Assembly: GCA_902385255.1 (NCBI GenBank)
Contig: CABMEV010000003.1
Span: 128,813-192,812 of the forward strand
Direction: 5' to 3'
From: Candidatus Tiddalikarchaeum anstoanum
GTDB lineage: Archaea > Nanobdellota > Nanobdellia > Tiddalikarchaeales > Tiddalikarchaeaceae
Length of the DNA: 64,000 nucleotides
Shown piece after piece: positions 8,917 to 18,216 of the stretch (positions are counted from its first letter, which is position 1; every line of letters begins with the position of its first letter). The translations under genes were made by a program, and so were the position numbers. The notes under the pieces were generated by a model. It had not been told where the DNA came from. It ran no database searches and worked only from the letters and a program-made list of their open reading frames with translations.

Positions 8917-10041
8917 TTAGAACATTTTAGGCAAAAACCTTGCATACTTTAACAAGTACGGTTTACTCTTTACTAATTCCAAAGCTAGTTTCAACAAGTT
9001 ATCCCTGTTTTGTCTTGAAATAATATATCTTACTCTTTTGTCGTCAAAGTCTTTAATCAGCATGTCCCATTCAGAATCTGACAACTTAGTCATGACTCTT
9101 CTGATAATTAGATGAGACAGTAATTCCCTTCTCGTTTTTGGAAGTTTTGGATATTCTCCATGAATAATATTTTTATAGCATTCAGTTATTGCAGAAAAGC
9201 TTGGAATTACTCCTCCTCCGCTTGTTGCTTTGACGAAACCTGCAGCATCACCCATTAAGTACACATTGAATCGGCCAATCTTTTTGTAAATCTCTCTGTA
9301 CGGGTTGTATATAGGAATAAGTCCTGCATTAACTTCAACAACTTTCCCTTTAATGTTCAAACTTTTTCGAATACTTCGCAGCTTCTTATTGACCAAAGAG
9401 TGAATTGTTGACCCAACGCCAATCTTAATATGAGTATTATCTACAGGAACAATCCATCCGAAAAAGTCTGATAATTCTCCTCCAAAGAATACTCCGTAAC
9501 AACTTATTTTTTTAATACTTGTCTTAATCAAGAATTGTTTGCCTAGATAAAACTCCCCTTTCGGATTCATATTGAATAATTCATTGACTTTTGATAACGG
9601 GCCGTCGCAGCCAATTATAGTGCTGCAGTCAAATTTTTCCACCCCGTTAGGCGTTTCGAACACTAACTGCAGACTACTGCCTCTTTTTTCGTAACTGCTG
9701 AGTTTATGATTGAAATAATATTTAACCCCTAAACTTTCAGCCTCTTTATGCAGGTACTCGTCAAATTTTGCCCTGTTTACAACATACTCATTGCTTTTTA
9801 ATAACACTTTGCTGTTTTGTGTATGGATTTCAACACTGCTTAATGTATTAACCAAGAATTCATCGCTTAAATTAACATAATCTTTAATTTTTTCAGTAAA
9901 TAGTCCTGTACAGTGGACCGGGAGCCCTGCACTTTCGTGTTCTTCAAAGACTAAGACTTTACATCCGGCCTTTGCCAAATTATAAGCTAGAAAGGAACCT
10001 GCAGGCCCTGCTCCTATTACTATAAAAGTTTCACTAGCCAC
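8917..10041 (-). CDS. Geranylgeranyl reductase family FAD protein
   Basis: This 374-residue flavoprotein starts with a dinucleotide-binding fold (VIGAGPAGSFLAYNLAKAG), followed by the PxxxxCxG-type motif LPVHCTGLFTEKI seen in the geranylgeranyl reductase family, and the second FAD motif VYLMGDAAGFVKATSGGG near 265-280. In archaea such enzymes saturate the isoprenoid chains of membrane lipids (digeranylgeranylglycerophospholipid reductase); that substrate is the best inference here. Length is slightly short compared with the roughly 390-400 residues common in the family. It is convergent with tfe and ends 13 bp from it. Confidence 0.85.
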   Translation of the reverse strand: MASETFIVIGAGPAGSFLAYNLAKAGCKVLVFEEHESAGLPVHCTGLFTEKIKDYVNLSDEFLVNTLSSVEIHTQNSKVLLKSNEYVVNRAKFDEYLHKEAESLGVKYYFNHKLSSYEKRGSSLQLVFETPNGVEKFDCSTIIGCDGPLSKVNELFNMNPKGEFYLGKQFLIKTSIKKISCYGVFFGGELSDFFGWIVPVDNTHIKIGVGSTIHSLVNKKLRSIRKSLNIKGKVVEVNAGLIPIYNPYREIYKKIGRFNVYLMGDAAGFVKATSGGGVIPSFSAITECYKNIIHGEYPKLPKTRRELLSHLIIRRVMTKLSDSEWDMLIKDFDDKRVRYIISRQNRDNLLKLALELVKSKPYLLKYARFLPKMF

Positions 10042-10073
10042 GAATTTCTAAGTTGTTATTCCTTTTAAAAACT

Positions 10074-10772
10074 TTATTTTATTAATTCTTCAAAATCCGG
10101 TCTTTTTATCAGAATTATTTCCTTTAATGGCGCGTATTTTTCAAGTGTATCTTTGATGAAGTTCTTGATTTCGCCAACGACTTTGCGGATTTTATTTTCA
10201 TCTTTCTTGTTTTGCGCGGCTGCGAGGCTGTCTGCTAAGAATGCATAGCTTTCTATCTGAGTTTTTAATTTTGTAAATTCTGTTCCGAGTTTTTTCTCAA
10301 GGTCTGTTTTTATTTTATCATCCCAGAAGCTGTCTAGTACGAGTTTTGAGGAATCAATTATTTCCTGCATTTTTTTGTCATCGAGTTGTTTTATCCTGTT
10401 ATGTGCTGCGTAGAGGGCTATTGAGGCGAGGTCTTGTTCTGCTTTTTCTGTGTATTTTACTATCTTGTTATTCTCGTACTTTAATGTTTCAAGTATTTTT
10501 CCCTGGTATGCTTTCAGGTAAGCGTCCCATTCTAGGTGGTATGTGTTTAGGAAGTATTCCTGTAATTCCCTGAATAGTATTGTTCTGTGCATTGGTTTTA
10601 GTTTTGTTTCAACATTATTCTTGTATTCTATTAGGTTTTTGAAATGGATGTCTAGGTTTCCTGGCATGTCATCGTTGCCCATTGCTAAGTATTTTATGTC
10701 TATTACTAGTCTTATGGCTCCAGGTATTGTTGAATGCGTAATATCATTATTTATCTTATCTTCGAGGCCCAT
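10074..10772 (-). CDS. Hypothetical helical protein
   Basis: A 232-residue soluble, mostly helical protein, rich in Lys, Glu and Asp, that I do not recognise. No signal peptide, membrane segment or catalytic motif is visible. It ends 32 bp upstream of the geranylgeranyl reductase gene on the same strand, so the two may be cotranscribed. An inverted repeat sits about 38 bp before its ATG. Confidence 0.6.
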   Translation of the reverse strand: MGLEDKINNDITHSTIPGAIRLVIDIKYLAMGNDDMPGNLDIHFKNLIEYKNNVETKLKPMHRTILFRELQEYFLNTYHLEWDAYLKAYQGKILETLKYENNKIVKYTEKAEQDLASIALYAAHNRIKQLDDKKMQEIIDSSKLVLDSFWDDKIKTDLEKKLGTEFTKLKTQIESYAFLADSLAAAQNKKDENKIRKVVGEIKNFIKDTLEKYAPLKEIILIKRPDFEELIK

Positions 10773-10809
10773 CGGGTAAGAATGAGAAAGTCTATTCTTA
10801 TAAAAATAT

Positions 10810-10828
10810 ACTACTCAAACAGAGTAGT
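10810..10828. promoter_or_regulatory. Inverted repeat upstream of the 10772 gene
   Basis: ACTACTC-AAACA-GAGTAGT is a perfect 7-bp-arm inverted repeat, 38 bp upstream of the ATG at 10772. It lies where a promoter operator would be. Binding protein unknown. Confidence 0.35.
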
Positions 10829-10861
10829 GAAAAGTAGGGGTTAAAATTAGGTATTAGGTGA

Positions 10862-10999
10862 CAAATCTTACAGACAACAAACAAAGAAGCCAAAATCAAA
10901 GGAGTATCAAAATCGACACTATTTGAACTAAAACAAAGACTAAGAAAAAATCCGAACAGATTCAATTGGAAGACAAAAAGAGTACAGGCTATACTTTAG
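10862..10999 (+). pseudogene. Orphan C-terminal helix-turn-helix fragment
   Basis: A 45-codon open stretch without a start codon, closed by TGA upstream and TAG at 10997. It reads like the tail of a protein: KEAKIKGVSKSTLFELKQRL is a good Hin-type helix-turn-helix (A-x-x-x-G-V-S-x-S-T-L), followed by a basic end. Similar tails occur at the C-termini of some archaeal Cas1 proteins and recombinases, but this assignment rests on memory of the pattern and is weak. It lies at the edge of the AT-rich patch next to tRNA-Gln and may be a leftover of a mobile element. The surrounding 10773-11040 holds no other gene. Confidence 0.35.
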
Positions 11000-11040
11000 G
11001 TTACATAAAGTCTAAATATTAGTACTTAATCTATAAAAAT

Positions 11041-11595
11041 ATGAATACATATGAAGATACTTATTTTTATAAGATAATTACACTTTTTATTATAGTTTTA
11101 ATAGGTTTTATATTAAATATTATTAGCGAATTAATGGATGATAATTATTTCTTTTGGTTTTTAATAGTTTTGTTAGTTTGTTTAATATACTCTGGATTTC
11201 GTGAAAATATAATTGAAAAAATAAAAAATATATATAGATTAAATAAAAAAAATATTAAGAATATATTTGCGTATTCACTAGTATTTACATTATCAGGGCT
11301 TATTTTATCTGATTCTATTAATCTACTTAATCTTGCTTTTAACGAAGTTTTTACTTCAACTATACGTTTAAATTTAATACTTTCTTTCTTAGTAGTTTCT
11401 ATTCTGGTTTGGATTACATTTAATTATATAATTACTAACAAAATGCTTGGAGAAAACTTTAACAATGTTATATATCAAGTTCTTATAATATTGGCATATA
11501 CTTTTTTGTTTTTTAAAATATTTAACCACCCTGAAAATTATTCTTTTTTTGTAGCTATATTCTACATTTTATTTTTAAATGTTTTTGGGAACTGA
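11041..11595 (+). CDS. Hypothetical polytopic membrane protein
   Basis: A 184-residue very hydrophobic protein with about six membrane segments. The first helix is YKIITLFIIVLIGFILNII and others follow at regular intervals; the loops are short and Asn/Lys-rich. No family is recognised. The gene is strikingly AT-rich even for this window (long runs of AAT, ATA, TTT codons), unlike the core genes on either side. With the next two small genes it forms an AT-rich patch ending at tRNA-Gln, which suggests acquisition from outside. Confidence 0.55.
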   Translation: MNTYEDTYFYKIITLFIIVLIGFILNIISELMDDNYFFWFLIVLLVCLIYSGFRENIIEKIKNIYRLNKKNIKNIFAYSLVFTLSGLILSDSINLLNLAFNEVFTSTIRLNLILSFLVVSILVWITFNYIITNKMLGENFNNVIYQVLIILAYTFLFFKIFNHPENYSFFVAIFYILFLNVFGN

Positions 11596-11609
11596 AATAA
11601 TTAAATTAG

Positions 11610-11825
11610 TTATTTCTTATTTTTTTCTTTTACATAAGTAATAAAAACTGAGAAAATACCTAATATAACTGAAACTATTCCAGATGAAGTGTTATCAAAT
11701 GGAAAAGTCGGATACAAACTTTTTGCTAAAAGAAGAGCTATATAAATTGAAAATGCAGATACAGCAAAAACTCTAAGTGCTCCAATAATATCATCAACTA
11801 TTTTATCAGACCAATGTCTTCCCAT
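11610..11825 (-). CDS. Small membrane protein
   Basis: A 71-residue protein with two predicted membrane helices (VFAVSAFSIYIALLLAKSLY and SGIVSVILGIFSVFITYV) and a charged C-terminus KEKNKK. I recognise no family. It starts 1 bp after the end of the zinc-ribbon gene on the same strand, so the two form a small operon. AT-rich like its neighbours. Confidence 0.5.
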   Translation of the reverse strand: MGRHWSDKIVDDIIGALRVFAVSAFSIYIALLLAKSLYPTFPFDNTSSGIVSVILGIFSVFITYVKEKNKK

Positions 11826-11826
11826 T

Positions 11827-12090
11827 TTAAACTAAACTCCATGAAAATTTCTTTTTTCTTGCCTTTTTAACTCTCTTCTTAGGGTATAATATACCATCAC
11901 CTATAGTTCTTGTTTTTGCTCCAGGCATAACCTTTCGTATAGGTGTAAGTATGCCATCTCCAGAAGTCCTAAACTTTTTACCTCTATGTTTATATGGTTT
12001 CCATGAATGCGAACAATCTTTACAAGACATAACACCGGGCGATTCTTTTTCAGTGTTTGTACTTTTGCATTTAGGACACTTTATTCCCAT
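11827..12090 (-). CDS. Small zinc-ribbon protein with internal repeat
   Basis: An 87-residue protein. Residues 5-26 form a zinc ribbon (C5-x2-C8 and C23-x2-C26; KCPKCKS and SCKDCSH). The rest contains two copies of a short motif, RTSGDGILTPIRKV and RTIGDGILYPKKRV, about 20 residues apart, and a very basic end (KKARKKKF). The function is unknown; the basic tail and zinc ribbon suggest nucleic-acid binding. It is the first gene of a pair with the small membrane protein. Confidence 0.55.
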   Translation of the reverse strand: MGIKCPKCKSTNTEKESPGVMSCKDCSHSWKPYKHRGKKFRTSGDGILTPIRKVMPGAKTRTIGDGILYPKKRVKKARKKKFSWSLV

Positions 12091-12177
12091 AATAATTTAG
12101 TACAATGAGATTTTTTATTCTTTACTATCTAAAGAGGGTTTCCTTTTTTGGATATATACTATACCCCAGAAGATAAT

Positions 12178-12202
12178 AGCCCTGCCGGGATTCGGACCTG
12201 AG
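12178..12202 (-). repeat. Decayed 3' fragment of tRNA-Gln (att-like repeat)
   Basis: The sequence matches the 3' end (T arm plus acceptor strand) of the intact tRNA-Gln at 12889-12961: over the 28 nt from 12175 only three positions differ. There is no D arm, anticodon arm or 5' acceptor strand. The T stem has an A-C mismatch, so it is not functional. It is in the same orientation as the tRNA and 712 bp away, as expected for one end of an element integrated into a tRNA gene. The surrounding gene-free stretch 12091-12397 holds nothing else recognisable. Confidence 0.7.
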
Positions 12203-12397
12203 ATACTTATTAACTTGCTCATCTTACTTTAAACTTATCTGGCTATATTGTGGATTTAACTTAAAATTCTTCTTAAATAAAATTAACTTTAAACTTGATT
12301 TAAAGCAGTAAAAGTTCTTAAAAAGATTTTTTCCTAATAATAGCAGGATAGACGATTTAAAACTACTTGAATGTTTTAAACAGTTGGTGACAAGATT

Positions 12398-12856
12398 ATG
12401 AATATGTTAAGAATTGACTGCAAGCAGCAAATTAGAGATAATATAGAAAATATTATCGAACCTATTATTTTAAACCCAAATATTAAAGAAATATATATTC
12501 AACAAAATAGAAATTTGGAAATGTTGGCAAAATATCAGACATTTATTTATGGAGGACAACTTTTTGGAAAAATAGAACTAAAAAGTAATACCCCAATTTA
12601 TACAAATCATGATATTGTACACCAAATCACTATAATTAATTATCCTAATAATCCAGTAATTACAGCTGCAAGCCATATCAGCACTGCAAAAGTCTGGCTA
12701 AAAGAAGACATAAACGCATTAGAACACACATCTTTTCAAGAACCGCCAAACAAGTTATGGATAAACCCAACATTAAGTTTTAACGATAAAATAATAATCG
12801 GCGAAGACCCAAAATACATAATAACACTAAAAGAAAACAAAATACAACCACTGTAA
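12398..12856 (+). CDS. Hypothetical protein inside tRNA-Gln-flanked segment
   Basis: A 152-residue soluble protein, rich in Ile and Asn, that I do not recognise. The start could be the first ATG or the second (MLRID), two codons later. It is the only gene between the tRNA-Gln fragment at 12178 and the intact tRNA-Gln, so it may be the sole cargo of a tiny integrated element or the survivor of a larger one. It carries no integrase motif. Base composition is AT-rich. Confidence 0.5.
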   Translation: MNMLRIDCKQQIRDNIENIIEPIILNPNIKEIYIQQNRNLEMLAKYQTFIYGGQLFGKIELKSNTPIYTNHDIVHQITIINYPNNPVITAASHISTAKVWLKEDINALEHTSFQEPPNKLWINPTLSFNDKIIIGEDPKYIITLKENKIQPL

Positions 12857-12888
12857 AAAAAAAGAATATTCTTTCTAAAATAATAGAA

Positions 12889-12961
12889 TAGCCCTGCCAG
12901 GATTCGAACCTGGGTTCGCAGGTCCAAAGCCTACTGTCCTTGACCGCTAGACTACAGGGCT
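12889..12961 (-). tRNA. tRNA-Gln (anticodon TTG)
   Basis: Read on the minus strand, a full cloverleaf forms: acceptor AGCCCTG/CAGGGCT, D stem GTCT/GGAC, anticodon stem GTAGG/CCTGC with loop CTTTGGA (anticodon TTG), T stem CCAGG/CCTGG with loop TTCGAAT, and discriminator A. All stems pair and there is no intron. GatDE, encoded further along, would convert Glu on this tRNA to Gln. The CCA end is not encoded. Confidence 0.95.
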
Positions 12962-13018: not shown

Positions 13019-14107
13019 TTACTTTAACAATTGGCCTACAGTATCCAAGCAGTCTATTAAGGTTAGTATGGTGTCAAATCCGACCCTTTTAATGTTAATA
13101 GGCCCGCCGTCTTTGTTAACGTTAAGCGTCATTTCAACCTTGCCGTCTCCCTGGTCCTTATGCACCGCTTTCACATGCACTTTGACTTCCTGTATGGATT
13201 TCTGATACTTTGGCAGAATCCTTAAATTATTCTTTATCACGCTGATTATCTCCTGCTGAAGTATAGGGTTTAATTTTTCACCGCTTACACTTATTTTGAA
13301 CAATCCGACTTTGGATATCTCTTCTATCTTTTTCAGAATTGCCTGCCTGTCTATTACACCCATAGGCTCATTGTTATTATTGACTATCACAATTCCGACA
13401 ATGTGATTCTTCAACATTTCATCAATAGTGTCTTTTAACGTATCATTAGTGTTTACTTTAGCATCCGGCCTTATTAATCCCTGAATACTCACATCCATTG
13501 TTTTAGTAAGCTCCCTCGGTACGAATTCTTTCTTGCCAATCCTCTGAGCAGAGTTCGCGTAGAAAGTCCTAAGTATGTCAATGCTTAATATGGTGCCTGA
13601 GAATTTTCCCTTCTTATCTATTACAGGCAGCCTGTCTATCTTGTTGAAATGCATCAGTTTTCTCACTTCACCTATGTTTGCAGTCTCAATAACAGGCTCT
13701 ATATTCTTAATCGGCAGCTCGCTCACTTTCATATTCGCGATGGACTTGTCATTCTTGAAGAAGTTTAATATATCATAATCTGATACGAAACCAACAACTT
13801 TTTTCTGCTCGTTAATCACAGGAAGACCTGTGCTTCCGCTGTTAATCATTATTTTCAGCGCGCTAACTTCACTGTCATCTTCCTTTATTACAGGGCTTCT
13901 TGACATAAAATTTTCAATCTTGCTGTCACCGGTGAATTTTACACGGTCTAGAATATCAATATAGGATACTTGTCCTATTAATCGTTCATTATCATCAACT
14001 ATAGGGATTTCTTTATAGTCATACTTATCCATAGTTGCTACAACGTTTCTAAGTAATGCATCAGGCTTTACAGTTACAACTTTTTTACTCATTATATTAC
14101 TAATCAT
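13019..14107 (-). CDS. Protein with four CBS domains
   Basis: Starting at ATG 14107 the protein has 362 residues. It contains two CBS pairs: repeated units such as IMSKKVVTVKPDALLRNVVA, FMSRSPVIKEDDSEVSALK, ELPIKNIEPVIETANIGEV and GLIRPDAKVNTNDTLKDTI, each followed by a GxV/GxI strand. CBS pairs bind adenine nucleotides and act as energy sensors. The last 90 residues (ISVSGEKLNPILQQEIISVI onward) are an alpha/beta tail with no known match. A longer reading frame upstream overlaps elp3, but the start at 14107 fits a TATA-like box 25 nt before it and gives a normal CBS N-terminus; M at 14092 is a further option. Confidence 0.85.
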   Translation of the reverse strand: MISNIMSKKVVTVKPDALLRNVVATMDKYDYKEIPIVDDNERLIGQVSYIDILDRVKFTGDSKIENFMSRSPVIKEDDSEVSALKIMINSGSTGLPVINEQKKVVGFVSDYDILNFFKNDKSIANMKVSELPIKNIEPVIETANIGEVRKLMHFNKIDRLPVIDKKGKFSGTILSIDILRTFYANSAQRIGKKEFVPRELTKTMDVSIQGLIRPDAKVNTNDTLKDTIDEMLKNHIVGIVIVNNNNEPMGVIDRQAILKKIEEISKVGLFKISVSGEKLNPILQQEIISVIKNNLRILPKYQKSIQEVKVHVKAVHKDQGDGKVEMTLNVNKDGGPINIKRVGFDTILTLIDCLDTVGQLLK

Positions 14108-14130
14108 AATCTTAGAGTGAATTTTTGAAT

Positions 14131-14142
14131 AGTTATAAAAGT
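14131..14142 (-). promoter_or_regulatory. TATA-like promoter of CBS-domain gene
   Basis: On the minus strand CTTTTATAACT lies about 25 nt before ATG 14107, just after the elp3 stop. The spacing suggests a leaderless mRNA and supports the shorter start. Confidence 0.5.
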
Positions 14143-14144
14143 TT

Positions 14145-15659
14145 TCACAACTTTTTAACCATATAATTATTTTCCAGATAATATCCAAGTTTTCGGTAAT
14201 AACCCCTGACACCTACACCGCTTATTACATGCAGCTTTGACAGCTTGTTCTTTCTAACTATACCCTCAGCAGTGCTCATCAATAATCTCCCAATGCCGGT
14301 ATGCTGTATCACAGGCTCCCCTCCTACAGGGACTTGTTCGCCGTAAACATGCAATTCCCTGACAAAACATTTATCTTTCATAATCCTCAGCCTTAAAAAA
14401 CCGAACAATACCTCTTTTTCATCAACGTATTCTATAAAGTACTCAGTGCCAAGGCTGGCTTCATACTTTATTTTTTTAATATGCGCTTTTGCAATTTCAC
14501 CATTATTCCTCCCAGCCTCCCTGCACCTTATGCACCTGCAAAACCAGCCTTCCCTATTCATATAATCCTTCACAAGCTCCCTTAAATTGCTGTTCTTCAA
14601 ATCCTGCTCAATCAAATAGCTTGGAATATCCCTTTGTATTCTCATAACCCTGACGTAAGGAGGGATTAATCGCTTTATCCTAGCAATAATTTTAATAGTA
14701 TCATTAAGAGAGTAAGGCATCCACTCCTTTCTTAAGTACATGTCATAAAGCTTGGTGCCTTTGATTAAAAGAGTTGGATAAATCTTCACCATATCAGGCT
14801 TGAAGCGGTTATCCTCAAACACTGTAGTGAAAGACTCAAGGTCCTTCTTAATAGTGCTTCCCGGCATATTAGTCATCATGTGATAATTAATCTTGAAACC
14901 TGCATCCTTAAGCATCTTAGTCGCCCTGACCACGTCTCCCACTGTGTGACCCCTGTTGCTTTTTGAAAGAACATTATTATCCACGCTTTGGACGCCTAAT
15001 TCTACCCTAGTCACTCCAAGCTTAAGCAGCCTCGATACCGTCTTCTTGTTTATCTCATCAGGCCTGGTCTCAATTGTTAATCCAACGCATCTTGAAAATG
15101 CATGCTCATTTAATTCCTGCATCGCTTTCAAACCGCCGTTCTTTTTATTATTCAAAGCCCTCAAACAATCAGTTATGAACTTCTCCTGGTAAGAGTACGT
15201 CCTGTGCGTGAACGTTCCGCCCATGATGATGAGGTCAATCTTGCTTGGAGTCTGACCCAGACTCTTATACTGCGATAGCCTGCTCTTAACCTGGGAGTAA
15301 GCATCATAATCGTTCATTGCACCCCTTAATGCTGCAGGCTCCCTTCCAGTATAACTCTGAGGAGTCATGAACTCGACGCCGCCAGGACAGAATACGCATT
15401 TCCCATGAGGGCACTTAGCAGGACTGGTCATGACAGCGATTACGGTAACCCCGCTTAAACGCCTGCTTAACTTCCTCGAGAAGACCTGCATGCCGCTTTT
15501 TAAAACCAGTGCGGAATCGCTTATTATATTAGGAATATTATACTTCTGGCATACTTCCTTCTTGACATTATACAACTCGTTTTTATTGCTGATATTCCGC
15601 TCTTTTACGAGTTTTATAATCTCATCAACCGCTTCATCGTAATATTTATTAGTCTTCAT
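14145..15659 (-). CDS. elp3: Elp3-family tRNA uridine-34 modification enzyme (radical SAM + GNAT)
   Basis: A 504-residue protein. The radical SAM domain holds its iron-sulfur ligands as C83-x4-C88-x2-C91 (KCPHGKCVFCPGG); TRPDEINKKTVSRLLKLGVTR follows in the barrel. The last 130 residues are a GNAT acetyltransferase domain (ELHVYGEQVPVGG, QHTGIGRLLMSTAE). Elp3 makes the carboxymethyl group at tRNA wobble uridine from acetyl-CoA; archaeal Elp3 works alone without other Elongator subunits. A Cys cluster (CRCIRCREAG) around residue 380 is the extra zinc-binding site of the family. It is divergent from the RDD gene with only 19 bp between starts, so their promoters must overlap each other or the coding regions. 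Confidence 0.95.
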   Translation of the reverse strand: MKTNKYYDEAVDEIIKLVKERNISNKNELYNVKKEVCQKYNIPNIISDSALVLKSGMQVFSRKLSRRLSGVTVIAVMTSPAKCPHGKCVFCPGGVEFMTPQSYTGREPAALRGAMNDYDAYSQVKSRLSQYKSLGQTPSKIDLIIMGGTFTHRTYSYQEKFITDCLRALNNKKNGGLKAMQELNEHAFSRCVGLTIETRPDEINKKTVSRLLKLGVTRVELGVQSVDNNVLSKSNRGHTVGDVVRATKMLKDAGFKINYHMMTNMPGSTIKKDLESFTTVFEDNRFKPDMVKIYPTLLIKGTKLYDMYLRKEWMPYSLNDTIKIIARIKRLIPPYVRVMRIQRDIPSYLIEQDLKNSNLRELVKDYMNREGWFCRCIRCREAGRNNGEIAKAHIKKIKYEASLGTEYFIEYVDEKEVLFGFLRLRIMKDKCFVRELHVYGEQVPVGGEPVIQHTGIGRLLMSTAEGIVRKNKLSKLHVISGVGVRGYYRKLGYYLENNYMVKKL

Positions 15660-15678
15660 TAACAGTATTACTCATTAA

Positions 15679-16203
15679 ATGGATGAATATAAAATTGTTC
15701 TCCCTGAGCGGGAATTAAAAAGTGTAGCTTCCTTGCAAAAAAGAGGTCTTGCATTAATAGTTGACATTCTCATCTTTTTCTTCTTCTTCTTTTCGCCGTT
15801 CATTTCAATATTCTATTACTGTGCCAATCTACCTATTGATAAGGCAGATGTTGAATCCATAATGGCCAATGACAAGATTTTCAGCATAATACTAGTCTCT
15901 GACTTCGTCGCCCAATTCGCATTCTTCTTCTACCTCGTGAGTTTTGAATACGTATTAGGCTACACATTAGGAAAGAAATTATTAAACTTAAACGTCGAGT
16001 CAGCAAACAAAGGAAAGCCGTCCTTGCAGAGCATCATCATCCGCAACTTATCAAAGAGTATTTTCTGGACAGTATTAGTGTTCGATGTCATCCCTGCTTT
16101 CCTGGATGCGAGAAGAAGGCGTATTTCCGACTTCCTTGCACAAACCATCGTCGTAGAAAGTAGGAAAATTATAAAAAGATTCCCTGCGGTTGAGACGGTA
16201 TGA
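15679..16203 (+). CDS. RDD-family membrane protein
   Basis: A 174-residue membrane protein with the features of the RDD family: a first segment KRGLALIVDILIFFFFFFSP with R and D, a second hydrophobic segment around FVAQFAFFFYLVSFEYV, the motif GYTLGKKLLNLNVE, and a third segment ending LDARRRRISDFLAQTIVV. Function in archaea is unknown; RDD proteins are sometimes linked to transport or ion antiport. It overlaps sppA by 4 bp (ATGA), so the two are one operon and may act in the same membrane. Confidence 0.85.
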   Translation: MDEYKIVLPERELKSVASLQKRGLALIVDILIFFFFFFSPFISIFYYCANLPIDKADVESIMANDKIFSIILVSDFVAQFAFFFYLVSFEYVLGYTLGKKLLNLNVESANKGKPSLQSIIIRNLSKSIFWTVLVFDVIPAFLDARRRRISDFLAQTIVVESRKIIKRFPAVETV

Positions 16204-17048
16204 ATGACTTAGCCAAGATTATAATATTATTCGTACTGTTATCATTATTCGTAATCATTACAGGGTCTGTACTCGGACTCATTTATGCAATTCCTTCAGG
16301 CAACGTTGCAGAAATCAGGATTGAAGGAGACATTGTTTCAACCAGTGATTTATTATCAGGAGGAGTCAGCAGTGATGCAATAATAAGCCAGATTAAGACT
16401 GCATTATCAAACCCTAACGTTGAAGCCATACTTTTATCAATTAACAGTCCGGGCGGAATGGTTGTCGCAAGCAAAGAAGTTGCTGAATACGTGAAGAGCA
16501 TTAACAAAACTGTTGTTGCACAAATCAGGGAGATTGGAGCGAGCGGTGCATACCTTATCGCAGCAGCAGCTGATTATATCATCTGTGACAATCTTTCAAT
16601 CACTGGAAGCATAGGCGTAACCGACAGTTATCTGGAATTTGCCGGCACTATGACAAAATATGGAGTGGAGTATAACAGGTTAGTCACTGGCGAGCATAAG
16701 GACATAGGGTCGCAGTTCAGGAATATGACTGCTGAAGAGAGGGATATTATAATGGGATTAGTCAACGAGTCATTCTCTTATTTCTTAAACTTCGTAACTG
16801 AGAGGAGGAACCTTACAGAAGAAACAATTACTCTAATTAGCGACGGCAGAATAATAGGCGGAAGCCAAGCTTACAGCTTAGGATTAGTGGACGAGTTAGG
16901 AGGCATTAATGAAGTCAAAAGATACCTCTCATCAAAAGGAATTGAAGAAATAACAATTGACGATTACTCATCCAGTACAAACATAATCCCTGACATCAGG
17001 AACTTATTAGGTTTTAAGACAGATTTAAACATTCCAAGCTTTAATTAG
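16200..17048 (+). CDS. sppA: Signal peptide peptidase SppA (S49 family)
   Basis: The 282-residue protein has an N-terminal membrane anchor (about 5-30) and a ClpP-like S49 domain. INSPGGMVVASKE is the typical substrate-strand loop, S115 in IGASGAYLIA is the nucleophile and K167 (TGEHKD) lies 52 residues later, the same spacing as the Ser-Lys dyad of Bacillus SppA. DGRIIGGSQAYSLGLVDELGG is the closing motif. It degrades leftover signal peptides and small membrane peptides at the outer face of the membrane. The start overlaps the RDD gene stop, and no better start exists. Confidence 0.93.
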   Translation: MNDLAKIIILFVLLSLFVIITGSVLGLIYAIPSGNVAEIRIEGDIVSTSDLLSGGVSSDAIISQIKTALSNPNVEAILLSINSPGGMVVASKEVAEYVKSINKTVVAQIREIGASGAYLIAAAADYIICDNLSITGSIGVTDSYLEFAGTMTKYGVEYNRLVTGEHKDIGSQFRNMTAEERDIIMGLVNESFSYFLNFVTERRNLTEETITLISDGRIIGGSQAYSLGLVDELGGINEVKRYLSSKGIEEITIDDYSSSTNIIPDIRNLLGFKTDLNIPSFN

Positions 17049-17053
17049 TTAGA

Positions 17054-17404
17054 TTATTTTATGCAAACGCAAACTTTGCCATTTTCTTCAGTTAATCTTA
17101 TTTCTAATTCAGGTTTTGATAATTCTATTAAGTAATCGCTTAATTTCTTTTCATCCCATACTTCACCAAATATTTGATAAGGATCAGCTACTTTACCAAC
17201 TGGAGAAATTAAATAATCAGTAATTTTATTGCCTGTCCAAACCTCGCTTTTACAAAACATTGGCGTTCCGAACTTAAGTGTGAGAACGTTAACACTATCT
17301 GGAATTAAAAAATTAAGTTTTTCTGCATCACTAAAATAACTAAAATAATGGGTTTTTCCTCTGCCAGACGAATCTAATATTTGATTATCTTGGGCTTTAT
17401 CCAT
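17054..17404 (-). CDS. Hypothetical protein downstream of TrmB gene
   Basis: A small soluble protein of 116 residues if it starts at ATG 17404 (MDKAQDNQILDSSG), 11 bp after the TrmB stop. A GTG further upstream at 17434 would overlap the TrmB gene and is less likely. No family is recognised: one possible domain with repeated aromatic and Asp residues (SYFSDAEKLNFLIPD). Its position suggests it is cotranscribed with the TrmB regulator and could be a target or cofactor of it. Confidence 0.5.
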   Translation of the reverse strand: MDKAQDNQILDSSGRGKTHYFSYFSDAEKLNFLIPDSVNVLTLKFGTPMFCKSEVWTGNKITDYLISPVGKVADPYQIFGEVWDEKKLSDYLIELSKPELEIRLTEENGKVCVCIK

Positions 17405-17415
17405 GATGTCACTTC

Positions 17416-18216
17416 TTATTTCAGTCCTGCCCACATATAGTTGAACATGTTATTCAGGCTTTTTGCGAACGCTTCGCTCTTAACCCATAATCCTAGTTCG
17501 AATTTAGGGTGAACTTTCTCATCTTCAATTAACAGGAATAATGCTTCATTATTGTCAGTAATTATGAATCTTGAACCGTCATTTAACGCTCTGTGGGTTC
17601 CTACTTCGCTGCCTACTTCTTTAAGCGTCGACTTGACTTCATCATTCATCGGAGAAACCATTCTTACAGTGACGCCTCTTTTTTTTGCAGATACAAGCAA
17701 GTCCTTGAATGACTTTACTTCACGGACTAATCCTTCAGCGCTCGTGCTTAATATTATGTCTTTTTTTGCATTCTTGATTAATGACTCAAGTCTGTTGTAA
17801 ATATTAGTCCTTCCTTTGATTACCCCGCTGATGTCATGGGGTTCGATGTTTTTAGTGCCGCTTGAGTATAACAGGTTTAACTCTTTCATTATAGGGCCTT
17901 CGCCTACTTTCTCGACAGATCTTATGCTGTGCTGGGCTTCTTCGAATAAGCTCTTCTTATACGCGGATAATACATCGTCAGGTTTTACAGCCATATACTT
18001 TATTGGCTTTGATAATTTCATTATAACAAAATTTTTCTTCTCTAAACTTTCAAGAACATCATAAGTTCTGCTTCTAGGAACGTTTGCAATATCACTCAAT
18101 TCTCCTGCAGTACTAACTCCTTTTGATAATAGTGCTAGCCAGATTTTAACCTCATAAAGATTTAAATTGAAAAGGTTTCTAAGTTCATTTAATATTTCAG
18201 GATCATTGACGACCAT
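17416..18216 (-). CDS. TrmB-family transcriptional regulator (second copy)
   Basis: The 266-residue protein has the TrmB layout: a winged helix at about 10-80 (NLYEVKIWLALLSKGVSTAG, PRSRTYDVLESLEKKNFV), a helical linker, and a C-terminal phospholipase-D-like sensor domain (about 130-265; GRTNIYNRLESLIKNAKKDI, then RGVTVRMVSPMNDEV). It is only distantly like the copy at 3351. A GGAGG lies 13 nt before the ATG, a little far. Upstream 18217-18407 holds its promoter region and no gene. Its effector and targets are not evident; the small gene downstream is the nearest candidate. Confidence 0.85.
   Translation of the reverse strand: MVVNDPEILNELRNLFNLNLYEVKIWLALLSKGVSTAGELSDIANVPRSRTYDVLESLEKKNFVIMKLSKPIKYMAVKPDDVLSAYKKSLFEEAQHSIRSVEKVGEGPIMKELNLLYSSGTKNIEPHDISGVIKGRTNIYNRLESLIKNAKKDIILSTSAEGLVREVKSFKDLLVSAKKRGVTVRMVSPMNDEVKSTLKEVGSEVGTHRALNDGSRFIITDNNEALFLLIEDEKVHPKFELGLWVKSEAFAKSLNNMFNYMWAGLK

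Follow-up and report, generated by a model that had tools for sequence, protein, structure and literature searches.

Site-specific integration targeted to tRNA genes is well known in archaea (PMC8371274). In Thermococcaceae, the DNA enclosed by a complete and a partial tRNA measures ~9-23 kb (PMC9897764), and the same source describes the PYG1 island of Pyrococcus yayanosii, which is located at a tRNA-Gln(TTG) and has ~21.4 kb and 44-bp repeats. The smallest cryptic integrated element of Thaumarchaeota measures 2.6 kb and encodes its own integrase (PMC6563490). Integron cassettes are also known in archaea, including Nanoarchaeota, mostly as integrase-less clusters (PMC9668308), and hitcher elements have been described as a general class (PMC11389934).

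The locus examined here lies in a 64-kb window, by which we mean the whole stretch of DNA that was analysed (35.8% GC). The window comes from a genome of 1.16 Mb in 13 contigs that is 94% complete (G000). Its gene content is archaeal, as is the small-subunit rRNA of relatives, and the nearest relatives belong to other genera. The lineage is probably DPANN-like. G002 is from the same family as G000 and G005 from another family of the same class; G001 is 87% complete and G010 is a reduced 0.6-Mb genome. Integron cassettes carry toxin-antitoxin-like cargo, while tycheposons, which are bacterial and much larger, are tRNA-anchored accessory DNA of which some members lack the full machinery. The T-loop was reportedly described by Williams in 2002 as a sublocation of tRNA integration. 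Our search of open-licence papers found no report of the pattern presented below.

The tRNA-Gln Locus

The initial annotation placed an intact tRNA-Gln(TTG) at 12889-12961, which was confirmed by Infernal (63.4 bits) and ARAGORN. The features of the locus are as follows.

12889-12961, minus strand: intact tRNA-Gln(TTG), to which the insertion is anchored (Infernal, ARAGORN)
12889-12914, minus strand: proximal repeat copy, from the T-stem to the tRNA 3' end (sequence alignment)
12177-12202, minus strand: distal copy of the tRNA-Gln 3' end, 23/26 identical (sequence alignment)
12203-12888, no strand: inserted segment, 26.4% GC, one gene, no integrase (ORF and family searches)
12398-12856, plus strand: orphan gene, 152 aa, convergent with the tRNA (ORF and homology searches)
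12203-12397, plus strand: upstream region of the orphan gene, with a TTAACTTTAAA-type motif at 12283; distal arm of the insertion
within 12203-12397, plus strand: archaeal TATA-like AAAAGTTCTTAAAAAG (TATA assigned by eye)
13019-14212, minus strand: CBS-domain gene, conserved 5'-side neighbour of tRNA-Gln
8917-10041, minus strand: FAD-dependent (geranylgeranyl-reductase-like) gene, ancestral 3'-side neighbour (Pfam FAD_binding_3; the rest by eye)

Positions 12175-12202 align to 12887-12914, that is, to 26 tRNA bases plus two common flanking bases. A 28-nt repeat in the same orientation and with three mismatches had been proposed for this stretch; all of this holds, except that two flanking bases are shared and not three. 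The mismatches are all transitions, and the repeat period is 712 bp. None of 100 dinucleotide-shuffled versions of the window contained a match at the level of this repeat, and across 60 shuffles of 64 kb no 26-mer came closer than 8 mismatches. The distal copy is presumed to be what remains of the original chromosomal tRNA end; under a Campbell-type model, the proximal copy would be element-borne.

The TTAACTTTAAA-type motif has three exact copies in the window (12283, 30437 and 30492), compared to 0.4 expected, and sits in AT-rich intergenic or promoter regions. Stretches resembling it are also found in two other loci, L063 (~720-1070) and L005. It is possibly an operator common to several genes.

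The Orphan Gene

The ORF at 12398-12856 is the only sizeable one in the insert. In 3000 runs of simulated sequence of the same composition the longest ORF was 110 aa, and a length of 152 aa was never reached; the GC content by codon position is 0.37/0.26/0.23. We therefore regard 12398-12856 as a real gene. Searches of Pfam, NCBIfam, PHROGs and PADLOC gave no family at a significant E-value, in agreement with the earlier description of a single unrecognised gene between the copies, and PDB sequences gave no convincing homologue. Among 93 relatives there was one marginal match, at 27%, and nothing else, and none was found in the genome or viral collections searched. Conservation of this gene in the same place in distant relatives, which the initial annotation had named as evidence against its proposal, was thus not observed in these searches. 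A single-sequence AlphaFold model of the protein was unusable (pLDDT 33). The protein was also compared with the 160-aa orphan encoded behind tRNA-Ala(CGC), and the two show zero similarity.

The 3' Side of tRNA-Gln in Relatives

A tRNA-Gln gene lies beside the same CBS gene in G001, G002 and G003. The order in G002 is FAD-dependent reductase, tRNA-Gln and CBS gene, with ~35 bp separating the tRNA from the reductase. In G003 the same two neighbours flank ~5.6 kb of different genes, and in G001 yet another sequence extends 3' of tRNA-Gln up to the contig end. These layouts show that the 3' side of tRNA-Gln is variable and its 5' side stable. Relative to G002, the extra stretch in the window is 10042-12888 (2.8 kb), with the fragment at 12175 inside it. 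The element had initially been given a length of 712 bp; this stands as the repeat period, but not as the extent of DNA that G002 lacks. Of the 2.8 kb, the 712-bp unit lies nearest the tRNA and would be the youngest part if integration was sequential. The rest contains the following features.

10042-12176, no strand: further lineage-specific DNA from the fragment to the conserved neighbour gene (2.1 kb), absent in G002
10074-10772, minus strand: 232-aa protein, with no relatives in the family's four other genomes
11041-11595, plus strand: 184-aa hydrophobic, probably membrane protein (by eye), no family
11610-11825, minus strand: 71-aa hydrophobic ORF
11827-12090, minus strand: 87-aa protein with an N-terminal zinc ribbon

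The stretch 10042-12176 may represent one or more older or separate insertions. A second tRNA-Gln fragment was searched for in 10042-12174 and none was recognisable. On the plus strand at 10872-10999 a short open stretch, TNKEAKIKGVSKSTLFELKQRLRKNPNRFNWKTKRVQAIL, runs into a stop and has no upstream gene. It looks like a gene remnant; a search with its peptide found no relatives.

The distal fragment was not found at the tRNA-Gln loci of the three relatives (in G001 over 646 bp only), so that an ancestral tRNA relic that predates the insertion, a reading against which the initial annotation had weighed its own proposal, is not what they display. An exact empty site, with tRNA-Gln running straight into what lies left of 12175, was found in no relative. 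G002 is without both fragment and insert, but it is also without the adjoining 2.1 kb. The exact junction is not seen because the left flank of 12175 is not the ancestral neighbour, the 2.1 kb intervening.

Copies of tRNA 3' Ends behind Other tRNA Genes

For each tRNA gene we searched ~8 kb downstream, where the contig allowed, for its own 3'-end 20-mer with up to 4 mismatches. In G000, 8 of 40 tRNAs have their own 3' end repeated downstream in the same orientation, two of the eight matches (Arg-TCT and Arg-CCT) being one and the same copy. There were no antisense copies and none upstream, where the sequence available is short for many loci. When the ends of other tRNAs were used as a control, 5 of 1490 comparisons gave a match (binomial P ~1e-12). 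Own-end copies follow 7 of 31 tRNAs in G001 and 8 of 34 in G005; the single matches in G002 (1/35) and G004 (1/18) are not significant alone (P ~0.06), and none was found for the 36 tRNAs of G010. All these P values are indicative, since full independence does not hold for related tRNAs or stacked copies.

When 33 copies were aligned with their tRNAs, the last 15 nt were 91-100% identical and the 16th position 76%; identity dropped to ~50% at positions 17-23 and to background beyond. Identity thus ends ~15-16 nt from the tRNA end, which places the junction in the T-loop. The 15-16-nt core is partly forced by the search threshold, whereas the stop of identity beyond it is not. A tRNA body was sought upstream of the gene-bearing copies and none was found, which argues against whole tRNAs in decay. 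The data support the view that the tRNA-Gln locus belongs to a recurrent class of small recombinase-less inserts at tRNA T-loops, of which it is a clear if slightly worn case. The recurrence, both genome-wide and across genomes, also lends support to the original suggestion that a recombinase encoded outside the element carried out the integration at the tRNA 3' end.

The stretch between Arg(TCT) and Arg(CCT) was considered as a cassette and rejected: its genes are conserved in G002, and the module behind Arg(CCT) alone remains. For several contigs (C2, C4, C8, C9, C15 and C19 of G002 and C46 of G004) an end falls at a tRNA gene or shortly after it, as would happen if the assembly broke at variable inserts or repeats.

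Gene-Bearing Inserts

In G000 itself, inserts with genes are found behind Gln (the orphan), Ala-TGC (an M16 peptidase), Ala-CGC (two orphans) and Pro-CGG (a HAD phosphatase). In members of the family, the insert at Thr encodes an MNT nucleotidyltransferase with HEPN, that at Asn an MNT, a HEPN and one more gene, that at His a NUDIX and a nucleotidyltransferase-like protein (by eye) followed by a BRO-N gene, and that at Leu-TAA a weak nucleotidyltransferase match. Inserts of G005 carry a ParE toxin with a putative antitoxin, and Fic. Weaker cases, with only ~14 nt matching, are Asp in G002 and Arg-GCG in G001, the latter with an NYN gene. The tRNA-linked inserts are low in GC, and those with genes mostly span 0.5-2.3 kb with one to three genes, a few segments being longer. 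No integrase was recognised in these small gene-bearing inserts.

Copies can be stacked. Those behind Arg-CCT in G005 lie at 90, 638 and 2126 bp and form an array. In this genome the Arg(CCT)-copy array (L206, ~15389-17596, minus strand) appears to enclose tRNA-Arg(TCG), as if that tRNA gene itself belonged to the stacked DNA. Two stacked segments are also seen behind tRNA-His in G001 (L130, 5640-8150), where the first repeat, which is longer than those of the other tRNAs, continues into the flank for 13 bp beyond the tRNA end.

A Candidate Recombinase

A whole-genome search of G000 with PF00589 detected one tyrosine recombinase, on another contig. It is 394 aa long, has a C-terminal zinc ribbon and is encoded directly 3' of tRNA-Asp(GTC).

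contig C12, 97626-99600 (locus L024): tyrosine recombinase locus, followed by a Vsr-like endonuclease gene

Zinc-ribbon enzymes of the same type and of ~400 aa are found beside tRNA-Ser in G003, G025 and G011, and G004 has an orthologue behind tRNA-Asp, truncated by the contig end. With integrases of one type directly 3' of tRNAs, the tRNA-Asp-linked enzyme is a reasonable trans-acting candidate. That it acts on the cassettes in trans is the weakest link of our proposal. No distal tRNA-Asp copy for the integrase-bearing element is recognisable before the contig end, and no tyrosine recombinase was detected in G001 (at 87% completeness), though this genome is rich in inserts. Neither end of the Gln insert contains pieces of an integrase, as in SSV-type splits. 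A search of G000 for the integron integrase IntI gave none, although this is not required of a CALIN.

Gene-Less Hairpin Modules

Many of the gene-less cases are ~60-bp modules consisting of a T-rich spacer, a hairpin and a tRNA 3' end. The module type, TTTGGTnCAGC-TTTCTT-loop-AAGAAA-GnTGnnGTGGAATCC, occurs 10-100 nt 3' of many tRNA genes, and most modules then carry an exact or decayed copy of the last ~15 nt of their own tRNA.

G005: hairpin modules in L198, L201, L203, L206, L209 and L217
G000: hairpin modules in L067, L085 and L087
G001: hairpin modules in L120, L128 and L134

Run over the whole of both genomes, a sequence model of the hairpin gave 13 matches for G005 and 4 for G000; many of these belong to the model's training set, and seven of the G005 matches lie outside it. 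By coordinates, each match is on the same strand as a tRNA and at most ~100 nt 3' of it. Several hairpins keep an internal mismatch, and the outer pairs covary (CCA/TGG, GCA/TGC, ACA/TGT, CAA/TTG), which suggests that the folded form matters, as RNA or as single-stranded DNA. RNAalifold found no consensus pairs in the plain hairpin alignment, and Rfam gave no family match. Tandem duplications of the modules with tRNA 3' ends occur in G001 behind tRNA-Leu and tRNA-Glu. The conserved hairpin is not found at the ends of the Gln, Ala or Pro cassettes. Since the Gln copy is without it, we do not claim one mechanism for both kinds of insert, and the modules behind tRNAs are a separate puzzle.

Weak matches to the hairpin model in more distant families were not counted. 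At the loci checked their placement differs from that in G000 and G005: most have no tRNA, and others lie across a tRNA that is predicted, with an intron, on the opposite strand.

Origin of the Insert

The 712-bp segment is probably a non-autonomous one-gene cassette that entered the T-loop of tRNA-Gln(TTG) by site-specific recombination. The incoming DNA would have brought its own copy of the tRNA 3' part, restoring an intact tRNA, and the displaced original 3' end would have been left at the far side, at 12177-12202, to drift since. As the cassette has no integrase, a tyrosine recombinase would have acted in trans. We infer the recombination step, the enzyme and the movement of the cassette as a unit. 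Small one- or few-gene cassettes may be stacked in this way behind tRNA genes of this archaeal lineage.

Insertion by a recombinase acting in trans is the best supported explanation because the pattern recurs genome-wide and across genomes. The segment could instead be what is left of a larger integrative element, a provirus or plasmid, that lost its integrase and most of its genes. Integrase-bearing elements do exist beside tRNAs in the lineage, and the adjoining 2.1 kb, with its orphan genes and the apparent gene remnant at ~10872-10999, would suit such a history. However, an intact ORF sits neatly between both copies, most other gene-bearing inserts are similarly small with no integrase recognised, and it is less likely that many loci decayed independently to single genes than that small units were inserted; we consider such shrinkage possible but rather unlikely. 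A system resembling integrons, in which tRNA T-loops are fixed insertion sites where a recombinase in trans stacks gene-bearing and gene-less cassettes into growing arrays of toxin-antitoxin-like and orphan genes, is a tentative proposal of comparable standing. In such a system some cassettes might end in hairpin sites that mimic the T-loop.

We regard it as improbable that the fragment is the relic of a duplicated or decayed tRNA gene, or stems from tandem duplication of the tRNA 3' end on the spot, with the gene arriving independently. Gene-less duplication of tRNA 3' ends does happen in the lineage, as in the tRNA-Leu and tRNA-Glu modules of G001, but no trace of a tRNA body precedes the fragment, unrelated tRNAs share one T-loop position for the junction, and the hairpin module conserved elsewhere is absent at the Gln copy. 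The three mismatches are all that could be said for a chance resemblance to the tRNA end, which the lack of an equal match in shuffles and the strong enrichment for own-tRNA, same-orientation copies render hardly credible.

If insertion of small cassettes in trans is true, it would explain how archaea with small genomes acquire accessory genes one at a time, and it would represent cassette capture that occurs in nature without integrons. Accessory genes could be listed directly, by collecting all that lies from a tRNA to the copy of its own 3' end.

Comparison with Known Systems

As in Campbell-type elements, an intact tRNA lies at one end and a same-orientation 3' fragment at the other, the junction is in the T-loop, the accessory genes are low in GC and several elements can be stacked at one tRNA. 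The Gln insert differs from them in having no integrase and in measuring 0.7 kb with one gene, whereas the published archaeal examples read for this comparison either encode an integrase or are much larger. Compared to PYG1, with its ~21.4 kb and 44-bp repeats, the insert in the window has 0.7 kb and an imperfect 26-nt repeat. The likeness to tycheposons and hitchers, which is one of description, lies in tRNA anchoring and incomplete machinery; the units described here are far smaller and archaeal.

With integron cassettes and CALINs the inserts share one- or two-gene units, site copies in one orientation and a recombinase that is absent or in trans. In some cases the hairpins of one genome resemble each other, and the cargo resembles that of integron cassettes. 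On the other hand, the inserts are anchored on tRNA genes, the sole tyrosine recombinase is of another type, and the hairpins behind many tRNAs, which the ends of the Gln, Ala and Pro cassettes lack, are at most candidate attC-like sites.
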